Source: Liolophura sinensis (Eukaryota; Mollusca; Polyplacophora; Chitonida; Chitonidae). Taken from it: a DNA stretch of 64,000 nt. The translations under genes were made by a program, and so were the position numbers. Shown here piece by piece: positions 7,801 to 49,605 of this stretch; position 1 is the stretch's first letter; each line of letters begins with the position of its first letter. The DNA is taken from assembly GCF_032854445.1 (NCBI RefSeq), contig NC_088303.1:36093501-36157500 (forward strand). The letters are read 5' to 3'. The notes beneath the pieces were generated by a model, which saw only the letters and a list, made by a program, of their open reading frames with translations, had not been told where the DNA came from and did no database searches.

Positions 7801-8994
7801 ATGTTCAAGGATACTTCAACTGCACACATGCATATCAGCTGTTGATTAACATAAATTAATTCATCATTAACTTTAACCTCATGCTACACCACAGAAGAAC
7901 TTTTAAGAACCTTTTTTCCAAAAGAGATCACAAAACTTTTCTCACAATGATAAAATAGCCCAGACAAATATTGCTTTCACTTTTCTCTGACACATTCAGC
8001 CTTGAGAATGTTAAATTTATATTTATAGTTTTTAAACACTAACATTACAAATTTTTGTATAATATAACATTTTTTGTTTTCTCTGGTTGATGACATTGTC
8101 TAAATTTGAAATGATAGTCTTTTATTATGACATTCTTATCAATGATAAAAGGCCATTTATACTTTTTTTCTGAATTATATGACACCTGTTAATGTTTTAC
8201 TTTGCATCACTGTAATCTGTTTTACAGACTTTTTATAACTATTTTGTAACTCTAAAACTTATATTATGCTTTTTGGAAACAGTCGTCTGTGTCCCAAAAA
8301 TTTGCATACCGGCATAAAATTTGACAAGGTAGGCTAAGTCTTCATTGGCACCCTCTTCCTGAATCTTGCGTATGTCGTTGTAGCCAATGGTTGTAAGGTA
8401 ATCGTTCTGTATCTCCAGCGGACAATCGTACGGCTCCAATCTCCGAATAATGTCGCCATTAAGCTGCATGTGAAGGGAATTTGGCGGCATGTTGCACTGA
8501 TAACAAATTCTCTGCGCTGTGGTTGTCAGCGTTGTCGGTACCAGATGTGAGACTTTGCTGGAAGACTCTGAACTGAACACACGCACCAGACCATTATTTG
8601 TGTCCTTGTCCAGCCAGTTCTTTATGTCAACTTTACTGTCGTTGGTGATGCTCTTACGAAAGCTACTGCTAATGACCTGTGACCTCTGGTCGACCTCTCT
8701 GTAAAGATCCTGCAGGGATTCACCTAAATCCCATATTTCCTCGTCAGAGTTGTTGTCGAAAAGACTACGACCAGAGTACAAAGACAGACCCACACTCTGA
8801 TGTGTTAGGCCTGGCTGAATGAAGTCGCCAATACTCCACCAGTTGGCGACATCCTCAGCGACATGGTACTGCCGTTTGTAAGGGTTGTACGAGCGCGACG
8901 ATGTGGTGGACTTAGTGGAAGGCACGCTGATCTTGGTACTCGTGCTGGTACAGCTGCGCTCGCTGAAGGCACTCCGACTGCTGCTGACGGACAT
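1434..8994 (-). CDS. PHLPP: PHLPP (PH domain leucine-rich repeat protein phosphatase), 5' part, six exons
   Basis: PHLPP enzymes are PP2C-type Ser/Thr phosphatases that remove the hydrophobic-motif phosphate of AKT and PKC kinases, at membranes, in the cytosol and in the nucleus (family knowledge). I joined six exons with GT/AG borders and matching phase: 8994-8310, 7014-6880, 5308-5124, 4210-4035, 3286-3140 and 1888-1434, totalling 594 residues. Visible parts are a Ser/Thr-rich N-terminus, a Ras-association-like region (about 134-228), a PH domain (about 240-335) and leucine-rich repeats from about 336. Diagnostic family strings are QEEGANEDLAYLVKFYAGKP before the PH domain and VTHLDLRDN in the LRRs, both close to my memory of human PHLPP. 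The last exon ends one base into a codon, so the remaining LRRs and the phosphatase domain lie off the left edge. An in-frame TGA at 9009-9007 supports the start. Whether it is closer to vertebrate PHLPP1 or PHLPP2 cannot be told. Confidence 0.93.
1965..2635. repeat. GTGTGACA-type minisatellite in PHLPP intron 5
   Basis: An irregular array of short units around cccagctgacacacagtgtg, with (CA)n patches near 2279-2300 and larger duplicated blocks of about 65-70 bp (2300-2500). It generates many Cys/Val/Ser-rich minus-strand open frames (VSAGCGVTLC type). Their Cys content comes only from translating repeated ACA/GCA on the opposite strand. It sits about 75 bp upstream of exon 6. Confidence 0.9.
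3140..3286 (-). CDS. PHLPP: PHLPP exon 5: leucine-rich repeats
   Basis: The exon is 147 bp, with acceptor AG at 3288-3287 and donor GT at 3139-3138. The junction codon with exon 4 is AGG (Arg). It encodes two textbook LRR units, LHSLNLADNDLLQFPSSL and LAELNLASNKLQEIPSDI, each with the LxxLxLxxNxLxxhP pattern. It ends with two bases of an Asn codon completed in exon 6. Confidence 0.92.
3527..3625 (-). mobile_element. SINE-1 fragment (3' part), reverse orientation
   Basis: Read on the minus strand it ends in the family tail (accaatcaaataaataaa, here with poly-A) preceded by gtaaaacacc-like, ataagtgaaat-like and the ccaccgtaatgcc-like segment. These match the full copies at 13842 and 43738. Only the 3' third is present, and it is diverged. 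It lies in PHLPP intron 4. Confidence 0.75.
4035..4210 (-). CDS. PHLPP: PHLPP exon 4: first leucine-rich repeats
   Basis: The exon is 176 bp, with acceptor AG at 4212-4211 and donor GT at 4034-4033. It follows exon 3 in phase 0 and leaves two bases for exon 5. Translation gives the LRR start: ADLSNCHLEFLPETIF, then LKILNLRHNVLKERP, then IGWLDDLHR. This parallels the SSVDLSCCSLEHLPANLF and LTHLNLKQNFL stretches after the PH domain of human PHLPP, recalled from the family. Confidence 0.9.
5124..5308 (-). CDS. PHLPP: PHLPP exon 3: second half of PH domain
   Basis: The exon is 185 bp, with acceptor AG at 5310-5309 and donor GT at 5123-5122. It starts two bases into a codon, completing the Asp begun in exon 2. 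It encodes the rest of the PH fold: LEVQLANGSVEEAQVKGHDY, then VYLSFTEEAEFKKWLRKAKK. The last stretch is the C-terminal PH helix with the invariant Trp (FKKWL). It ends in phase 0. The exon is too short and too split to appear as a long open frame. Confidence 0.92.
5309..6879. other. PHLPP intron 2, no feature seen
   Basis: About 1.6 kb of A+T-rich sequence between exons 3 and 2. No repeat family or conserved coding segment is recognisable. The other two large gaps (2636-3139 and 4211-5123) are equally plain. Confidence 0.6.
6880..7014 (-). CDS. PHLPP: PHLPP exon 2: first half of PH domain
   Basis: The exon is 135 bp. The acceptor AG is at 7016-7015 and the donor GT at 6879-6878. Reading across the junction from exon 1 restores a Gly codon and the family string FYAGKP. 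The exon encodes the first beta strands of the PH domain (LMVRKGKLLHQWVRRLCVM, then GTRLLIHR), equivalent to the MYNVRKG...W-R-R...ILCGTCLIV stretch of human PHLPP. A longer open frame on this strand (7041-6811) is in a different frame and is a shadow. Confidence 0.9.
7015..8309. other. PHLPP intron 1, no feature seen
   Basis: 1.3 kb of A+T-rich intron without recognisable repeats or open frames that resemble known families. It is bounded by a clean donor (8309-8308) and acceptor (7016-7015). Confidence 0.65.
8310..8994 (-). CDS. PHLPP: PHLPP exon 1: Ser/Thr-rich N-terminus and Ras-association-like region
   Basis: This exon gives residues 1-228 plus one base. The ATG at 8994-8992 is preceded by an in-frame TGA at 9009-9007, so this is very likely the true start. 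The first 40 residues are almost all Ser, Thr, Arg and Lys and look disordered. An acidic patch follows around 80-100 (DEEIWDLGE). Residues 134-228 resemble the RA-like segment before the PH domain in PHLPP, with the conserved RRLEPYDCPLEIQNDYL and IQEEGANEDLAYL. The donor GT lies at 8309-8308. The open frame reads on to 8239 in the intron, but those residues match nothing in the family. No upstream 5'UTR exon is visible. Confidence 0.92.
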
Positions 8995-9672
8995 TGTGCT
9001 TTCACATCATCTGAGAATTACTCCCCTTTTGTGTTGATCTTTCAACTAGAACATGTTGATTATCTGCAAAAGCAAACACATAAAGCACCTATATATATTT
9101 GTCTGATTTGACACAAGAGGAAAAAAGTAAACGCCATAGCAGGACAAACTTTACAACATCAAAAGTGAACTGCAATATATAATGTAACATTGGGCAGATA
9201 ATGTCCATTGGTTATCTCTTTTTGTTTTGAGATTGTTATTGGTGATGTTGTCTGTCCGATAAACCAGTTAGGCAGTGTTTGAGGACACAATCTACTAATA
9301 TACAAGGGGAACAATCCAAGCTGTCTTGCAGAAACAAAACCATATGGAGACAAAATAACTGAAAATTTACCTTAACCATAACCATTAATAATTTGATTAA
9401 AACATATCATAAAACACTGACGCATAATCCCACAACATACGCTGTATTCCTGGATACAATTCTATCAACTCCTGCTTCCCAAATTTATCATAAACGACAG
9501 TGTTCAATTTGAAGACTCAAGTTCTTTACATTTTGGATCTCTTGCTGGTTTCATAAATGGGCATTTTAGTGCAACTAACCTTTGTTACAACTACTCTGTA
9601 GGTATGTTGTACTGCAGTTAAGTTATATAATCAAACTGACTGAAACATAACCAGCTGGTTAACTAGCTTTGT

Positions 9673-18771: not shown

Positions 18772-19451
18772 TATTAAATACATATATACATTAGGCCTAT
18801 TGTTGTCTTGTATTTTAACCTGAGTTTGTATCATATATTAAAACATACAAATATATGTTGATAAGGAATCTTAGCTACACAGACTTGTACACATAGGCTG
18901 ATATGGGGTCATTTTTGTTATAAAGTTTTAGACATTTAGTTTAATATGTTACATCTAAAATGTTCCTTGTTTAACCTTTATTTCATACTATACATACCTA
19001 TTATCAAATTTCTGACAATTAAAATCATTGGCCCAGATTCTGGAGCCTCATCAGCCAACTAGAGACATATTGGTAGTCATGGATATAGCTGCCGAAGTTA
19101 ACAGTGCCTAGTCAAGTGTAAAGAGAGGGAAAAAAACAAGATGCAAATTACTCTGCATAGCCTATCTTTACCTGCTTGATATGTGAGGGCAAGAGCTATT
19201 AAAATGATACAGAGAGCTAAAAAAGTTTGTATGTACACCATGACTCAAGTTGAAATAATTTGATGTGGGCTATGATAAAACATCTACAGGATGCATCCAG
19301 CCTGAAGAATTCCAGGAGTAAACAGTCAGTAATATCGACAATTGAAGGATGACTTGAAGGCTTTTGTTAACATTTCTGTCATGTGAGTAGTCCTCCATCT
19401 GATACAGCTTTCTGGATGTTTTCCTGGATGACCATGTATACTTCCCAGTCA

Positions 19452-19453
<2 letters not shown>

Positions 19454-19511
<58 letters not shown>
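19454..19511. repeat. (TA)n microsatellite
   Basis: Uninterrupted alternating TA of about 58 bases, directly beside the minisatellite that follows. It creates a false run of Ile-Tyr codons in minus-strand frames. Confidence 0.97.
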
Positions 19512-19513
<2 letters not shown>

Positions 19514-19524
19514 CTGACCAAAAT

Positions 19525-20655
19525 AATATACCTGTGTGTACAGGATAACATGATGTGGAATAAAATAACATGTACCTGTATAGAATAACATCTGTACATA
19601 CATGACGGAAGAACATGCCTGCAGAGAACATGTACATGCCTGTACAGAATAACATATCCCTGTACACACATGACGGAAGAACTTGTGCCTGCACAGGACA
19701 TGTAAGTGCCTGTGGACAATAACATATACCTGTACAGAATATCATATACCTGTACAGAATACCATATACCTGTACAGCATAGCTTGTATATGTACCTGTA
19801 AAGAACATGTGCCTGTACAGAAGAGCATGAACCAGTACATAAAAACATGCACTGTGCAGAAAAGCATATGCCTTCTTTTACAAAATAAATTATACCTGTA
19901 CAGAATAACATGCGTTTGTACAGAACAGAATATATCTGTACACACATGACGTAAGAACTTGTGCCTGCACAGGACATGTACGTGCCTGTACAGAATAACA
20001 TTTACTGTAGAGAAAACCATCTACTTATTATAGAATAAAATAAACTTGTACATAATAACATGTATACATGTGCATCCGTATATAATAACGCCTACATAAC
20101 AGAAATGCATGTACATGTAGCTGTATAAAATAACATGTACCTGTATAGAATAACATACAGGCGTACCTGTATAGAATAACATGCACCTGTATAGAATAAC
20201 ACAGAGGCGTACCTGTATAGAATAACATACAGGCATACCTGTATAGAATAACATGCACCTGAACAGAATAACACAGGGGTGTACCTGTATAGAATAACGT
20301 ACAGGCATACCTGTACAGAATAACATACAGGTGTAGCGGTATAGAATAACATACAGGCATACCTGTATAGAATAACATGGACCTGTATAGAATAACATGG
20401 ATCTGTATAGAATAACATGGACCTGTTTAGAATAACATACAGGCGTACCTGTTTAGAATAACATACAGGCGTACCTGTATAGAATAACATACAGGCATAC
20501 CTGTATAGAATAACATACATGTGTACCTGTATAGAATAACATGCACCTGTATAGAATAACAAAGACACGTACCTATATAGAATAACATACAGGTGTACCT
20601 GTGTAGAATAACATGTACCTGCACAAATAATGTGTATACCTGTACATATGTCCCA
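19525..20655. repeat. 1.1-kb minisatellite of 19-26 bp units
   Basis: Dozens of copies built around acctgtacagaataacatg (left half) and acctgtatagaataacatac (right half). Spacers of 0-7 bases (aggcgt, aggcat) alternate in a higher-order pattern in 20140-20560. Several minus-strand frames of 65-243 codons (YSIQVHVILYRY type) cross the array in different phases and are artefacts of a stop-poor unit. Confidence 0.95.
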
Positions 20656-20659
20656 GGGT

Positions 20660-21350
20660 GAGGAACAATGAATTAACATTCCCCCCTCACAATACAAAGC
20701 AAAGCTTCCTCTGGCAAACTAGAGACTACATGTAATTCTCCAACTTAAGTCATCAACAATGTGGTTATTCCCCTTTTCCCCAGTCCTGAACAGTGTAATA
20801 ATTCTCTCACTTTAGTTCTGAACAGTGTGGTAATACTCCTACATACAAACAAAAGATTAATTTAATCAAACTCAAACAATGTATACATACATATATAAAA
20901 CACTGTTATTGGGATTTTGCCTCCTGCACTATACATAACTCTTTATCTCACAACTCGTATGCAATTCTAGCCATGATTTCTTGCAAATTAATTTCCTTCA
21001 AATTTTTTTCATAATGCATATTAAAATAAGATGTGCATAACAGATGTAGATCCATGTCCACTGATACAGGTCCACAGGTGGGTTTCTTATAGACTTTGTG
21101 TTTTTAATAAAGATAATGTCTTAATATGCATTCATACAAGCATGAATGTTAACTGATTTGCACATACTTGCCTTATCTGTTCAGGATTATGCAACAGTGT
21201 CAGGAATTTTAACTCATGCATACCTACATTTATTTAAGAATTTGACAGACTTATGTAAATGTACACCAGGAGACAAGTTTTTTCCCTGCTACCAGACTTA
21301 CATTACACAGCCACTGTGTTTGTCTGACATTATGTGGCACTCTTACCCCA
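20660..21350. other. Intergenic, no feature seen
   Basis: About 0.7 kb between the minisatellite and the hAT-like MITE. Plain A+T-rich sequence without recognisable genes or repeats. Confidence 0.55.
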
Positions 21351-35028: not shown

Positions 35029-36270
35029 ATGACACAGGTCATGTTAATGGATGGAAGCAAGCCCCAAGGGAAAGCATCCAGCATACCTAACCAGGGGGCA
35101 GTGCCTGACAGTCCTCAGCAGCAGTTCCAAGGCAAAATAGCAAGCATACCTAACCAGATGGCAGTGCCTGACAATCCTCAACAGCAGTTCCAGGGGAAAG
35201 CAGCCAGCATACCTAACCAGGTGGCAGTGACTGACAATCCTCAGCAGCAGTCCCAAGGCAAAATAGCAAGCATACCTAACCAGATGGCAGTGCCTGACAA
35301 TCCTCGACAGCAGTTCCAGGGGAAAGTAGCCAGCATACCTAACCAGATGGCAGTGCCTGACAATCCTCAACAGCAGTTCCAGGGGAAAGCAGCCAGCATA
35401 CCTAACCAGGTGGCAGTGACTGACAATCCTCAGCAGCAGTCCCAAGGCAAAATAGCAAGCATACCTAACCAAATGGCAGTGCCTGTCAATCCTCGACAGC
35501 AGTTCCAGGGGAAAGTAGCCAGCATACCTAACCAGATGGCAGTGCCTGACAATCCTCGACAGCAGTTCCAGGGGAAAGTAGCCAGCATACCTAACCAGAT
35601 GGCAGTGCCTGACAATCCTCGACAGCAGTTCCAGGGGAAAGTAGCCAGCATACCTAACCAGATGGCAGTGCCTGACAATCCTCAACAGCAGTTCCAAGGG
35701 AAAGTAGCCATCATACCTAACCAGATGGCAGTGTCTGACAATCCTCAGCAGCAGTCCCAAGGCAAAATAGCAAGCATACCTAACCAGATAACAGTGCCTG
35801 ACAATCCTCAACAGCAGTTCCAGGGGAAAGTAGCCATCATACCTAACCAGATGGCAGTGCCTGACAATCCTCAACAGCAGTTCCAAGGCAAAATAGCAAG
35901 CATAACCAACAAAATGGCAGTGCCTGACAATCCTCAACAGCAGTTCCAAAGCAAAATAGCAAGCATACCTAACCAGATGGCAGTGCCTGACAATCCCCAA
36001 CAGCAGTTCCAGGGGAAAGTAGCCAGCATACCTAACCAGATGGCAGTGCCTGATAATCATCAGCAGCAGTACCAAGGGAAAGTAGCCATCATACCTAACC
36101 AGATGGCAGTGCCTGACAATCCTCAGCAGCGGTTCCAAGGGAAAGTAGCCATCATACCTAACCAGATGGCAGTGCCTGACAATCCTCAGCAGCAGTCTCA
36201 AGGGAAAGCTGCCAGCATACCTAACCAGTGCCTGACAATCCCCAGCAGCAGTCCCAAGGGAAAGCAGTAA
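35029..36270 (+). CDS. Possible low-complexity repeat protein (21-residue repeats), doubtful
   Basis: A 413-codon frame starts at ATG 35029. After 13 residues it is made of eighteen repeats of 21 residues on the pattern GKVASIPNQMAVPDNPQQQF-Q, rich in Gln, Pro, Asn and Val. For coding: a perfect 63-bp unit length, no stop in 18 units, and variation confined to a few positions (Val/Ala/Ile, Ser/Ile, Phe/Ser/Tyr, Gln/Arg). Against: the opposite strand is also open for 424 codons, there is no signal peptide or flanking domain, a 7-base loss shifts the frame in the last units, and no splice partner was found. It may be an exon of a structural or matrix-type protein, a decayed gene, or a plain minisatellite. 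I do not recognise a family. Confidence 0.25.
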   Translation: MTQVMLMDGSKPQGKASSIPNQGAVPDSPQQQFQGKIASIPNQMAVPDNPQQQFQGKAASIPNQVAVTDNPQQQSQGKIASIPNQMAVPDNPRQQFQGKVASIPNQMAVPDNPQQQFQGKAASIPNQVAVTDNPQQQSQGKIASIPNQMAVPVNPRQQFQGKVASIPNQMAVPDNPRQQFQGKVASIPNQMAVPDNPRQQFQGKVASIPNQMAVPDNPQQQFQGKVAIIPNQMAVSDNPQQQSQGKIASIPNQITVPDNPQQQFQGKVAIIPNQMAVPDNPQQQFQGKIASITNKMAVPDNPQQQFQSKIASIPNQMAVPDNPQQQFQGKVASIPNQMAVPDNHQQQYQGKVAIIPNQMAVPDNPQQRFQGKVAIIPNQMAVPDNPQQQSQGKAASIPNQCLTIPSSSPKGKQ

Positions 36271-36300
36271 GCATACCTTACCAGATAACAGTGCCTGACC
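35068..36300. repeat. 63-bp tandem array, about 20 units
   Basis: Eighteen complete units of exactly 63 bp are followed by diverged ones. The unit core is agcatacctaaccagatggc agtgcctgacaatcctcaac agcagttccaggggaaagta gcc. A higher-order period of three units (189 bp) is visible near the left: the VAVTDNPQQQSQ unit recurs three places later with its neighbours. After 36210 a 7-base segment (atggcag) is missing from one unit, which shifts the phase. Confidence 0.95.
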
Positions 36301-37015
36301 ATCCACAGCATACAGCACATGCGTCTCTCCCTATATTCGCTCTACATCATTGCAACCACTAGGCTGGTTTGACTTTTGGTGCCCATGCGATGCACTGGGG
36401 CTTGTTTAGGCTTAGCCTCACCACTGGTGCCCTTGCGCGGTACTATTTAATTGGTATTTATTAATAAAATTGTTTCAGGTGTTCTTGCTGTGCATACGTC
36501 TGATGGAAAGACAGAATGTTTATAAAGAATTATTAGAAAAAAAGATTGAGACAAAGTTTTTGTGTTTCATGACATCAACTCTTGCCTCATCACCGTGAAG
36601 CAAGTGACCTCGGCGTTGTTCAAGATTTCTGTACAAAATTTACTAGCGGTGGCAGTGATGAATCCTTAGCAGAACTAGCGACTTCGTGGGTTTTGAACCT
36701 GCAACCTTATCAGTCAACAGCTGGTGGACTCTCGACGGGAATTAATTATGGTTCTGCTTTCCACCACCTGCCAACTCTGCCATCTCCAATCTAGTCAAAA
36801 AATATTAAATAGGGCATACACTTGCATGTACATGTCTAATAAATAGGCCTAGGGCATAATCATGGTAAATTATTGGCACGGCCGACACAACCGGCCAATC
36901 ATCAACATCGATGATAAGTGATAGTGGCAAACAAACTTTTGTAAATAAAGCGAGAAAAACATGTACATAATATATGTACTGTGTCATTTAACGATTAGGG
37001 CATGCTCTGGCCCCA

Positions 37016-45699: not shown

Positions 45700-46301
45700 T
45701 TCTGTCCAGCTAGGCCGATAGCCTGAAGCTAAAGGCCGCCCAAAAAGCGAACGTGCACCTTACGAGACGAGCCGCGATTTGTAATGGGCGCTCAAGCGCG
45801 ACACAGATGGATTATGGGAGGTTTGAACTCGGAGGTTACAAAATGGCGGACGAGTGCGACGACCATTCAGATGCAGGCAGTTAATCAATGTAGTTTAGCA
45901 CTAAATGACTGACAAGGAAGAGCAAGTACGCTGCGGAAGTACTTCTTACATTGTTCAGGCAGAGTTGGGTGTTCGGTTTTCTTGTGGAAACCTATCCAAA
46001 CGGGAGATAACAGCGGTTAAACCGGCTGGATGCGGCGAACGACGGTCCGATCTTATTCAGCGATGAACATCGTTAGCTAGCTGGACGAAGGCATTTCTTA
46101 TCGCACTTCTAGGGAAATAAGATTGGGATTCTTGAATGGACGATTTGCTTTAAAGGAGATTTCTTGCGGTGTGCTATTTCGGGAAAGTTTTGTACTGGTC
46201 GTCTTGTTTGTCCAGTGAGTTCATAAAGACGGTAAGGACAAGCTCCGATTGTTTTTATTATGGTTTTGCCTGATTAGAACGAGTGCCATTGATTTGCGGT
46301 C
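45700..46301 (+). promoter_or_regulatory. Probable promoter and 5'UTR of the cysteine-module gene
   Basis: Base composition changes here from A+T-rich to richer in G+C and CpG (gcgctcaagcgcgacac, gatgcggcgaacgacgg), just upstream of the large coding exon. The string aaaatggcggacgag at about 45840 fits the YY1/initiator-type motif (AANATGGCGG) common near TATA-less animal promoters. It also opens a short upstream reading frame (45843-45884). No TATA box stands out. Start site and any 5'UTR intron are not determined. Confidence 0.5.
45843..45884 (+). other. Short upstream ORF in the presumed 5' leader
   Basis: ATG GCG GAC begins a 13-codon frame ending TAA (MADECDDHSDAGS). The context is good for initiation. 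If transcription starts upstream of it, it would precede the main ATG at 46302 and could reduce or regulate translation. Alternatively the YY1-like motif marks the transcription start itself and the frame is not translated. Confidence 0.4.
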
Positions 46302-48671
46302 ATGCTGCACCGCGCTGTGTGTTTTGTTTGCGGCAGTCCCGGGGCGGACACCCGTCTCTACACGAAAACTAGAGACAAAGAACCATATTTCCCCTTCCTC
46401 GAGCACCATGATCCACCAAGGGGTTCGAGAACGCCAGGTGCAGACGGGGCGGTGGATAGTTGCCGCGTTTGTTACGCTTTTCTCAGACAACAATGGGAGG
46501 CCTACGAGCGCACAAAGACTCCGGCCATCAAACGCTTGTACTGGCTAAAGCGCTCCGACAACGGACATTTCACTGGAGCCGAAACACGTCTGCAAGGCGA
46601 ATACATAGCTCAAGTGATGGGCTTTCAGTTTAACCCCACTCCCGGCACGTACGACGCCAGCGGAGGGAATTATAGCCCCCCGCCTCCTGCCCCTCAGTCC
46701 CATTTTGACAGATCAACCGGCAGTGTTGGACAGATGTCTCGCAATAATACACTTCCCCCTCGTGAAGCCCCATCGTCATCGGCTATGTCTGCAGCAGCTT
46801 CTGCTGCACTGAGGCCCACACAGGGGGGGTTTAGACACGCAGGAATGCAGGGCTCAGAAGGGGTGCTGGATCTTTCCCTCCCAGTTAAGCCACAATCTAA
46901 AAGTGAGGTTAGCATATCAGCGTCCACAAAGCAGGACAGAAAACGAGAGAGGGATTTTCCATCACATGGCAGTAGAAAAGAAGTCAGTGAGGGTCCACAT
47001 GGTGAAATGGCCTACCAAAGACATGGTGATATCTATAGTGGCAGCACACGCTCAACCTCTCATATGTCTAGCCATCACTCGGCTACTGTTTCCTATCCTA
47101 ACAGTAACAAACCCACAGCTGACGTCTCAAATATTGTGACATGTTTTACTTGTGCAGTGGAATTGCCATTCTCTGAGGGTAAACTAGTGTACAGCTGTCG
47201 ACAAGATGCTAGCGGTAAGGAGCCTTACTTTCCTTTTCTAGAGAGCCTGTCTCCTCCATCTGGTTCTGTACCAGTCCACAAACACGGGGCCACCAAACTC
47301 TGCGTACCCTGCTTAACATCATTGTTACACCAATGGGATATGTTTGTGTCCCAAGAAATCCCAGTTGAACTGAGGCAGTATAAACTGCCCAGAAAATCTG
47401 ATCGTTATAAATACAACTCTGCTCAGAGCAGTACTGTTCCAACGACTGACACTCATTTTGTCCCAAAAGTATCCAGTTTACACCAAAGCCATCCTGTATC
47501 CGAGATTTGCTATCTTTGTGGTCAGTTGTACCCAGATGACAACATGAAAATTTTATTCACACGTGCCCCAAATGCTAACAGCCACAGAACAATGTACTTT
47601 CCTTTTGTGCGGGATCTTCCTCGCCCTCAAGGTGCCAAACCTCTCGATCAGGAAGGCACGGTTTTGTCGTGTCGTTCTTGTTATGGTCATTTACAGAAAC
47701 AGTGGCAAATGTATCAGGCAGAGGCCGTCCACCCAGTTCACCGAACATACACGCTCCGTGCTGCTGAGGGAAGTGAAGGTCCTCCAGGTAGTAAACTGGA
47801 CTCTGGAGGTGAGCCCTCGCGTCCTGTTCATAGTGAGTCTAGCATCAGTCAGCCATTAAACATTCAAATTGCTGCCAACAGCCCAGGACCGATGGCTGCA
47901 ATTCCTGCTCAAGGGTTACTGGCGATTGCTGCAGCACCTACCGTGACGTCCACATCGACCACGCCGAATTATCAAGATGTTTCGCCAGTATCTTCTACCC
48001 AGGTGACCTCACAAATGGCTGATGGTCGCAGGTCATCAGGTGAAACAAAGGCTGGACCAAATGTCACAGTGCCCCACCCACTTACGCAAATGACAAGCAT
48101 ACCCCAAAAGGTATGTTTTGTCTGTGGAGAGAAATCCATTTTACCTAACACCCAAGTCCTCTGCTCATATCCTTCTAGATTGGATGCTAAAGCTCCTCCT
48201 GGCCAAGCCAACCCGTTTTTTCCATTTCTGGCCAATCGGGACCCTGCCGGCGGTGCAGAGGGAATGACAGAAGATGGCACTGTGGTCGCTTGCAAATATT
48301 GCTACCATCTTCTCCTCGCCCAGTGGAAGGAGTATGAAACGTCTGCAACACCAAGCGACAGTAACCGATGGCTTCGAAAGTATTCTTTGAAAGAATTTGT
48401 CTGTTATGTCTGTGCAACCCAAACAACTCGTAAGAGAATGAGAACATTGCATGTGAAACCATTCTACTTTTTGAAGGAGCACAAGTCTCCATCGGGTGCC
48501 ATCGTTATGGACAATGGCGACAGTGTAGCTACGTGTCGTAAGTGTTACGCGAGTCTACTACACCAAATGAAGGAGTATGATCGCATGGGACTGCCTGTAG
48601 AAATGAGGAAGTACAATTGGATACCTGTCACTAAGGGGTCGTGCTTTGACGATGGTGAAGAAGACACTCAG
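46302..48671 (+). CDS. Large first coding exon of a five-module, cysteine-motif protein (GSE1-like candidate)
   Basis: The exon gives 790 codons from ATG 46302, with an in-frame TGA at 46290-46292 just upstream, to the CAG before donor GTGAGA (48672). The frame runs four codons further to a stop in the intron. The protein contains five copies of one module, each with four cysteines in two C-x2-C pairs: C7/C10/C54/C57, C281/C284/C334/C337, C403/C406/C457/C460, C605/C608/C664/C667 and C701/C704/C745/C748. Between the pairs lies a (P)YFPF(L/V) type core and a PPxG-like turn. After each comes a helix of the form LLxQWxxY and an RxYxL end. This looks like a treble-clef-type zinc-binding fold. Linkers are Ser/Pro/Thr-rich and disordered. 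VLDLSLP (189-195) resembles a CtBP-binding motif. I do not recognise the family with certainty. An invertebrate GSE1-like nuclear co-regulator is a guess from memory. Confidence 0.9.
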
Positions 48672-49605
48672 GTGAGATATATATAATCTTTTACACACTA
48701 TTCAGTTCATAGGTTTATATTTTTTAAAGTAATTCCGAATACACATGTATATCTCTGCTAGTGTGATACCGTCCATAAATATTCTGGCTTCTGTTTTTTT
48801 AACAGTTTGTTAGAATCCAAAAGCATTTTTTCATTTCACAGAAATCCATGGGGGTCCAAATATAGATTCCACTTTATTTAGATAGGCCTTCTCTGAATTA
48901 CCTCCCTTGTCAAACTGCAGCAGTAGCATGCATGATATAATACAAGAATGGTATTTTGAAACGTGAAAATAAGAGAAGTGAGACCTCATCTATTACTAAG
49001 TACATGTATGCATGATGGTTAGATATTTTTTTTGCAACAGAATGTGGTAAAAGAGGAGCAGTGTTTTCAGTTTGTATGTGGGTAGACAGAGTTTGCCAAA
49101 GCTGTTTGTATTTTATTAGGGGATTTTTAAATTTTCTCCATTTGGATTAAAATCATATGGCATGAATCATGGGCTTTCCAAATCAGTTTATGACATTAAA
49201 CTTACTGTTTATAAAACGTATATGAAGTACACATGCACTGCAACACCGCAGAAGAAAATGATGTGTTCTACTGTGATTTGAACCTTCTGTGTAGCTTGTC
49301 TTCGAGTCCCCTATTAACTTATGCTGCTATAATTCTTGCTGTTAATGCATTACCCATTTTCAGAGGCCCCACATAACCACAGCATGCTCCTAAAAGCTAA
49401 TGTAAATGATAGATGGGCTTCAAGGGAGAAAATGTGGAAGGGCTGTGTTGGTCTTTTCTCAGGGTATTCCAAAGTTTTTCTCAAATCTTTGAATTTTGAT
49501 TATTAAACTTGCTTTTGATATGCATTGAATTGGATTTGTAAACTAAACATCATCCTTAATTTATGCCTGAAAACGTATGTACCTGTACATAAGCTGTACA
49601 TTTAA

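Follow-up and report, generated by a model that had tools for sequence, protein, structure and literature searches.

We found that a single exon of the chiton Liolophura sinensis encodes five copies of a four-cysteine module. On balance, we take this exon to be the 5' coding exon of GSE1, to which it would add five treble-clef-like zinc modules as a multivalent protein-interaction array. The exon lies on the plus strand of the window, the whole stretch of 64,000 nucleotides that was analysed (contig NC_088303.1, here C9, positions 36,093,501 to 36,157,500). Coordinates refer to the window unless they carry the prefix C9, and the modules are numbered M1 to M5 from the N-terminus.

Five copies of a four-cysteine module in one exon

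The plus-strand frame is open from 46293 to 48686, with its first ATG at 46302 and an in-frame TGA upstream at 46290. No AG occurs between this TGA and the ATG; thus, unless the start is spliced out, translation should begin within the five-module exon, which spans 2,370 nt (790 codons). The context of the donor directly after base 48671 is consensus-like (CAG/GTGAGA). The original prediction had placed the exon at 46302-48671, which was exact to the base at both the ATG and the donor. Its features are collected in Table 1.

Table 1. Features of the five-module exon, in window coordinates
Feature	Position	Strand	Basis
Putative 5' coding exon (790 aa) with five modules	46302..48671	+	ATG, upstream in-frame TGA 46290, donor CAG/GTGAGA
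Module 1; Cys 7, 10, 54, 57; extreme N-terminus	46302..46583	+	Profile; AlphaFold2 pLDDT 83.1, pTM 0.74
Ser/Pro-rich linker M1-M2, 179 aa	46584..47120	+	Composition
VLDLS in M1-M2 linker	46863..46877	+	Sequence
Module 2; Cys 281, 284, 334, 337; fifth Cys 299	47121..47405	+	Profile, motifs
Module 3; Cys 403, 406, 457, 460	47487..47768	+	Profile, motifs
Ser/Pro/Thr-rich linker M3-M4, 109 aa	47769..48095	+	Composition
Module 4; Cys 605, 608, 664, 667; fifth Cys 621	48096..48395	+	Profile; overlaps module 5 range by 5 codons
Module 5; Cys 701, 704, 745, 748; most divergent, adjoins M4 without linker	48381..48641	+	Profile; AlphaFold2 pLDDT 82.8, pTM 0.71
Likely splice donor GTGAGA, phase 0	48672..48677	+	Sequence, judged by eye

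The exon encodes 23 cysteines, 20 of which fall within ten C-x2-C motifs, and all ten motifs belong to the five modules. By comparison, 10,000 shuffles of the 790 residues yielded a mean of 0.65 such motifs and a maximum of five. Leave-one-out profiles, each built from four modules and searched against the fifth, scored 73.2 (M1), 62.5 (M2), 67.2 (M3), 64.9 (M4) and 54.1 bits (M5), with E values from 3.8e-15 to 4.7e-21, whereas the best score among 5,000 shuffled modules was 10.5 bits. These results bore out the original prediction of a single exon with five four-cysteine modules. The modules are 87-100 residues long. Across their alignment, ten positions never vary: besides the four cysteines, they carry F, G, L, Q, R and Y. 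Two C-x2-C pairs per module, 40 to 55 residues apart, had also been predicted, and the spacings of 43, 49, 50, 55 and 40 residues in M1 to M5 confirmed this.

Other predicted features held in part. The YFPF core is exact in three of the five modules (M1-M3), but reads FFPF in M4 and FY-F in M5, where the proline is missing. Similarly, the QW of the predicted LLxQWxxY helix is kept in four modules, whereas M5 has QM. Long Ser/Pro linkers, which had been expected between the units, separate M1 from M2 and M3 from M4, but none is present between M4 and M5 (33 residues from the last to the first cysteine pair), and M2 and M3 lie 27 residues apart by the limits chosen here. To judge from composition, the linkers are probably disordered. 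The motif VLDLS in the first linker resembles CtBP-binding motifs and would fit a corepressor, though five matching residues are weak evidence.

We found no second copy of the exon or of the module elsewhere in the 609-Mb genome. In searches that score the best candidates only, the whole exon matched itself alone, and M1 matched five places at E values up to 10, all of them inside the five-module exon. The five-module profile detected no sixth module among six-frame open frames of at least 25 codons over 111.5 kb, where the next-best open frame had an E value of 0.24.

Family searches and predicted fold of the modules

No Pfam family reached its cut-off with the exon or with any of the five modules. 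PF04071 (zf-like) scored 22.6 bits (E = 1e-4; cut-off 27 bits) at exon residues 720-762, inside M5, but was absent from the Pfam list when M5 was searched alone. This match may be an echo of a zinc fold. The low-scoring Pfam hits (zf-like, DUF7101, FAD_binding_9 at E = 0.007 on M3, zf-Tbcl_FmdE and others) were taken as chance, because none reaches its cut-off and they vary between modules. Sequence searches of the PDB gave no match with the whole exon, and none with the five-module profile at E values up to 10. NCBIfam returned a single row for the five modules, on one module at E = 0.1. With one protein query each, the prokaryote contigs gave 15 pattern matches with no relative among them, and the viral contigs gave none. 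The listings of open-licence papers showed no account of the module, nor of such an array in an invertebrate GSE1; many 'GSE1' matches there were probably GEO accession numbers. The prediction that the modules fit no named family therefore holds at the sequence level in Pfam, the PDB and NCBIfam, while at the fold level they appear treble-clef-like, with a ZAD-like layout. We regard them as a candidate zinc domain family below every Pfam cut-off, within a fold group that is itself well known.

We folded M1 and M5 separately with AlphaFold2, using the alignment of the five modules (five rows) as input. The five models had pLDDT values of 83.1, 82.7, 81.3, 69.6 and 48.5 for M1 and of 82.8, 77.2, 50.7, 47.7 and 46.6 for M5, so that three of five and two of five, respectively, exceeded 70 (pTM of the best models in Table 1). 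The models of both modules share the same order of elements: a strand, a short helix, a strand, and a helix of 16-17 residues with the second cysteine pair at its start. In the M1 model this helix spans residues 55-70, with Cys 54 just before it and Cys 57 in its first turn; in the M5 model it spans residues 53-69, with Cys 52 and Cys 55 placed in the same way. A treble clef consists of a C-x2-C zinc knuckle and a hairpin, followed by a helix that carries another C-x2-C at its N-terminus. Structure prediction of a module, proposed earlier as a check, thus gave a zinc-finger-like layout for both M1 and M5 at a pLDDT of about 83.

Foldseek returned no match for either model at E values up to 0.001 (best E = 0.53 for M1 and 0.057 for M5). 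We then considered the VIA-align ranking, which re-ranks Foldseek's own candidates (108 chains for M1, 603 for M5); its best Z values of 4.1 (M1) and 4.5 (M5) are weak, and a Z below 8 may reflect a common arrangement. Among the matches listed for M1 were thymidine kinase (Z = 4.1, 2.6 Å, 43 residues), GATA3 (Z = 3.5) and the CG2712 ZAD (Z = 3.4, 3.4 Å, 61 residues), with HNH, VAL PHD-like and nuclear receptor domains as further neighbors. Those listed for M5 included FYVE (Z = 4.5, 3.2 Å, 56 residues), HNH (4.2), GATA4 (3.5) and the ZRANB3 HNH (3.2), as well as three ZADs: Grauzone (Z = 4.1, 2.9 Å, 58 residues), CG2712 (3.6, 59 residues) and Serendipity-delta (3.3, 62 residues). Ribosome entries filled 41 of the 50 rows listed for M5, and the ribosome chain matched is probably eL24. 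We take the listed PDB neighbors to be mostly treble-clef zinc domains. The thymidine kinase, FYVE, HNH, GATA and nuclear receptor zinc domains resemble the modules as fold neighbors, but differ in that Z is at most 4.5, identity is 8-33% over the aligned residues, and there is no sequence match. Several Foldseek rows that are not zinc-finger-like were set aside as noise: BTB domains, EscC, SetA and a flagellar protein for M1 (E 4-9; 50 of 52 matches listed), and 40S ribosomal chains (from E 0.6) and a primase subunit (E 1.8) for M5 (50 of 214 matches listed). Because the two separate models gather the same fold group, which is the sole argument for this reading, the module fold weakly appears treble-clef-like and near ZAD in layout, with Z values that are low and tied.

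From the layout of the models and their structural neighbors, we infer that the four cysteines of a module meet at one site. The predicted fold and the structures near it lend support to four-cysteine zinc binding, as originally predicted, but the matches are weak. The cysteine pairs could instead form disulfides in a secreted protein, given that the conserved cysteines are even in number. We consider this very improbable: the first cysteine of M1 is residue 7, leaving no space for a signal peptide ahead of it, and zinc sites typically have C-x2-C pairs of this kind, the second lying where a helix begins.

Among known domains, ZAD (PF07776) invites the closest comparison. One paper describes a domain of 71-97 aa in which two cysteine pairs, separated by about 50 aa, share one zinc and are followed by a helix that takes almost a third of the domain (PMC5509000). 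The modules resemble Drosophila ZADs (Grauzone 1pzw, CG2712 6fp5, Serendipity-delta 7poh) in size, in cysteine layout and in the helix after the second pair: the five spacings given above agree with this layout, and the helix is present in both modules modelled (two of five). ZAD chains also appear in the lists of both M1 and M5, over 58-62 residues at 2.9-3.6 Å, although their Z values are tied with those of other zinc domains. Against true membership of the ZAD (zf-AD) family, the zf-AD profile gave no row for the exon or for any of the five modules at E values up to 10 (HMMER filters on), and the Pfam gathering score was not reached. The five-module profile likewise matched no PDB sequence at E values up to 10, though the PDB includes ZAD chains. 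The modules differ further in their shorter helix (16-17 residues), in their tandem arrangement of five, and in having no C2H2 array in the exon. A search of the whole genome at E = 0.01 found no ZAD, but the same search matched in none of 14 control genomes, so ZADs may yet occur in it. Membership of the modules in the ZAD family is improbable in our judgement.

The neighbors also bear on function. The main alternative to a protein-interaction role is that the modules are nucleic-acid-binding zinc fingers of GATA, nuclear-receptor or HNH type, giving GSE1 a direct contact with DNA or RNA. Such domains are among the structural neighbors, and M5 (15 K+R and 7 D+E of 87 residues) and M1 (15 and 11 of 94) are basic. 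On the other hand, M2-M4 are near neutral, the helix positions common to the modules carry L, Q, W and Y instead of basic residues, and the structural matches are weak. We consider nucleic-acid binding unlikely.

Linkage of the exon to GSE1

A genome search with DUF3736 (GSE1, PF12540) gave two plus-strand matches, at C9:36200438-36200659 and C9:36201021-36201206, which scored 62.2 and 30.6 bits against a cut-off of 22.6; none of the 14 control genomes matched. Pfam scored the first region at 58.2 bits. A PDB sequence search with the DUF3736 exon gave no match at E values up to 1. The genome search gave no other DUF3736 match, and these two follow the five-module exon on the same strand, 58 kb downstream of its end (C9:36142171). 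A run of GSE1-like exons was found in the 47.5 kb beyond the window, from about C9:36190118, beginning ...PPLSMLSPATAKVTRTTATVPPLN...SSFAAALRKLAKQAG, which looks to us like the start of vertebrate GSE1. The lead to GSE1 in the original prediction was thus supported by linkage. To our knowledge, human GSE1 lacks such cysteine modules, which sets it apart from the arrangement proposed here.

We scored the interval from the end of the exon to the start of the GSE1-like run with codon statistics trained on the five-module exon and three GSE1 stretches. By this simple score, no convincing coding stretch was found over the 48 kb after the exon: among the 12 best per strand, the top score was 25.5 and the rest were at most 18.3 on either strand. 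The stretch scoring 25.5 (extended map 96071-96258) was rejected as an intervening exon, as by eye it is an interspersed repeat seen at at least five other places. GSE1-like exons scored 20.5-121 in similar scoring, and one further stretch of the cluster scored 16.3; because of this low value and the training on the same exons, a short exon may yet lie within the interval.

Judged by eye, C9:36190113 is the best-looking acceptor, but its phase does not match that of the donor: a join there reaches a stop after ten codons. In-phase AGs occur at C9:36190061 (pyrimidine fraction 0.73, equal to that of 36190113), 36190124 and 36190133. Splicing may therefore use an in-phase AG or an intermediate exon, or the exon may belong to a separate gene. 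In the last case it would encode a nuclear protein of 794 aa with (almost) no introns, ending at TAA 48684-48686, or be joined to small exons that lie before GSE1. The frame does run on through the donor to this stop, 12 nt further; the best-looking GSE1 acceptor mismatches in phase; and one AATAAA (49716) and five ATTAAA lie within 2.8 kb downstream. Against this, a good donor consensus, judged by eye, stands just before the frame end, in-phase GSE1 acceptors are present too, the codon score found nothing convincing in the next 48 kb, and the next recognisable exons are those of GSE1 on the same strand. A separate gene is possible, but we hold it to be rather unlikely. One gene comprising the five-module exon and the GSE1 exons appears to be the simplest reading, with the five-module exon as the probable 5' end of this GSE1 gene. 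As a separate observation, the acceptors at C9:36190061, 36190113 and 36190124 before the first GSE1-like exon could allow alternative N-termini.

A possible role for the array, and other features of the window

In our reading, each module would comprise a zinc knuckle (the first C-x2-C), an aromatic YFPF-type core and a second C-x2-C starting the helix (LxxQWxxY), and would probably hold one structural zinc. ZADs form antiparallel dimers, according to passages of two papers (PMC5509000, PMC9531945). By analogy, the helix and aromatic core of each module might offer a protein-protein surface, and the tandem modules could make GSE1 multivalent, with avidity for self-association or for several partners. 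A multivalent zinc-dependent scaffold, as originally proposed, would thus be a reasonable reading. Mammalian GSE1 is reported to be in a complex with HDAC1/CoREST (PMC10681733) and to be present in LSD1 immunoprecipitates (PMC8830420). Multivalent GSE1 might then cluster or target the HDAC1/LSD1-CoREST corepressor.

The portions of the literature examined present GSE1 as a corepressor-associated protein and describe no function for any of its domains. Five folded zinc modules at the front of GSE1, if real, would be a concrete interaction part to test. More tentatively, some invertebrate GSE1 proteins may carry five N-terminal ZAD-like treble-clef domains that make LSD1-CoREST-HDAC multivalent, the array being old and lost in vertebrate GSE1; we hold this broader proposal to be doubtful. 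If it is true, work on human GSE1 has missed the original targeting part of the protein.

The window contains several features besides the exon. Exon-like open frames on the minus strand at 1411-1971 and 8239-9006 resemble parts of a PHLPP-like phosphatase gene (LRR_8, E = 6.8e-13; PHLPP RA domain RA_3, E = 1.2e-22). Two long minus-strand frames at 19270-20718, of 243 and 208 codons, have repetitive CYSIQVHVILYR-like text, and the second overlies a tandem array at 20136-20621. The interspersed repeat noted by eye occurs in both orientations at about 9765, 13932, 39308, 43772 and 51710 and, beyond the window, at C9:36189571 (extended map 96071), and its frames read like RRTQEYFTYT...NRAEPGGNPRPST. 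Lastly, a tandem array at 35064-36304 has a period of 63 bp and 19.8 copies, falls within open frames on both strands (429 codons on the plus and 428 on the minus strand), and reads as a 21-residue unit around PNQMAVPDNPQQQFQGK.
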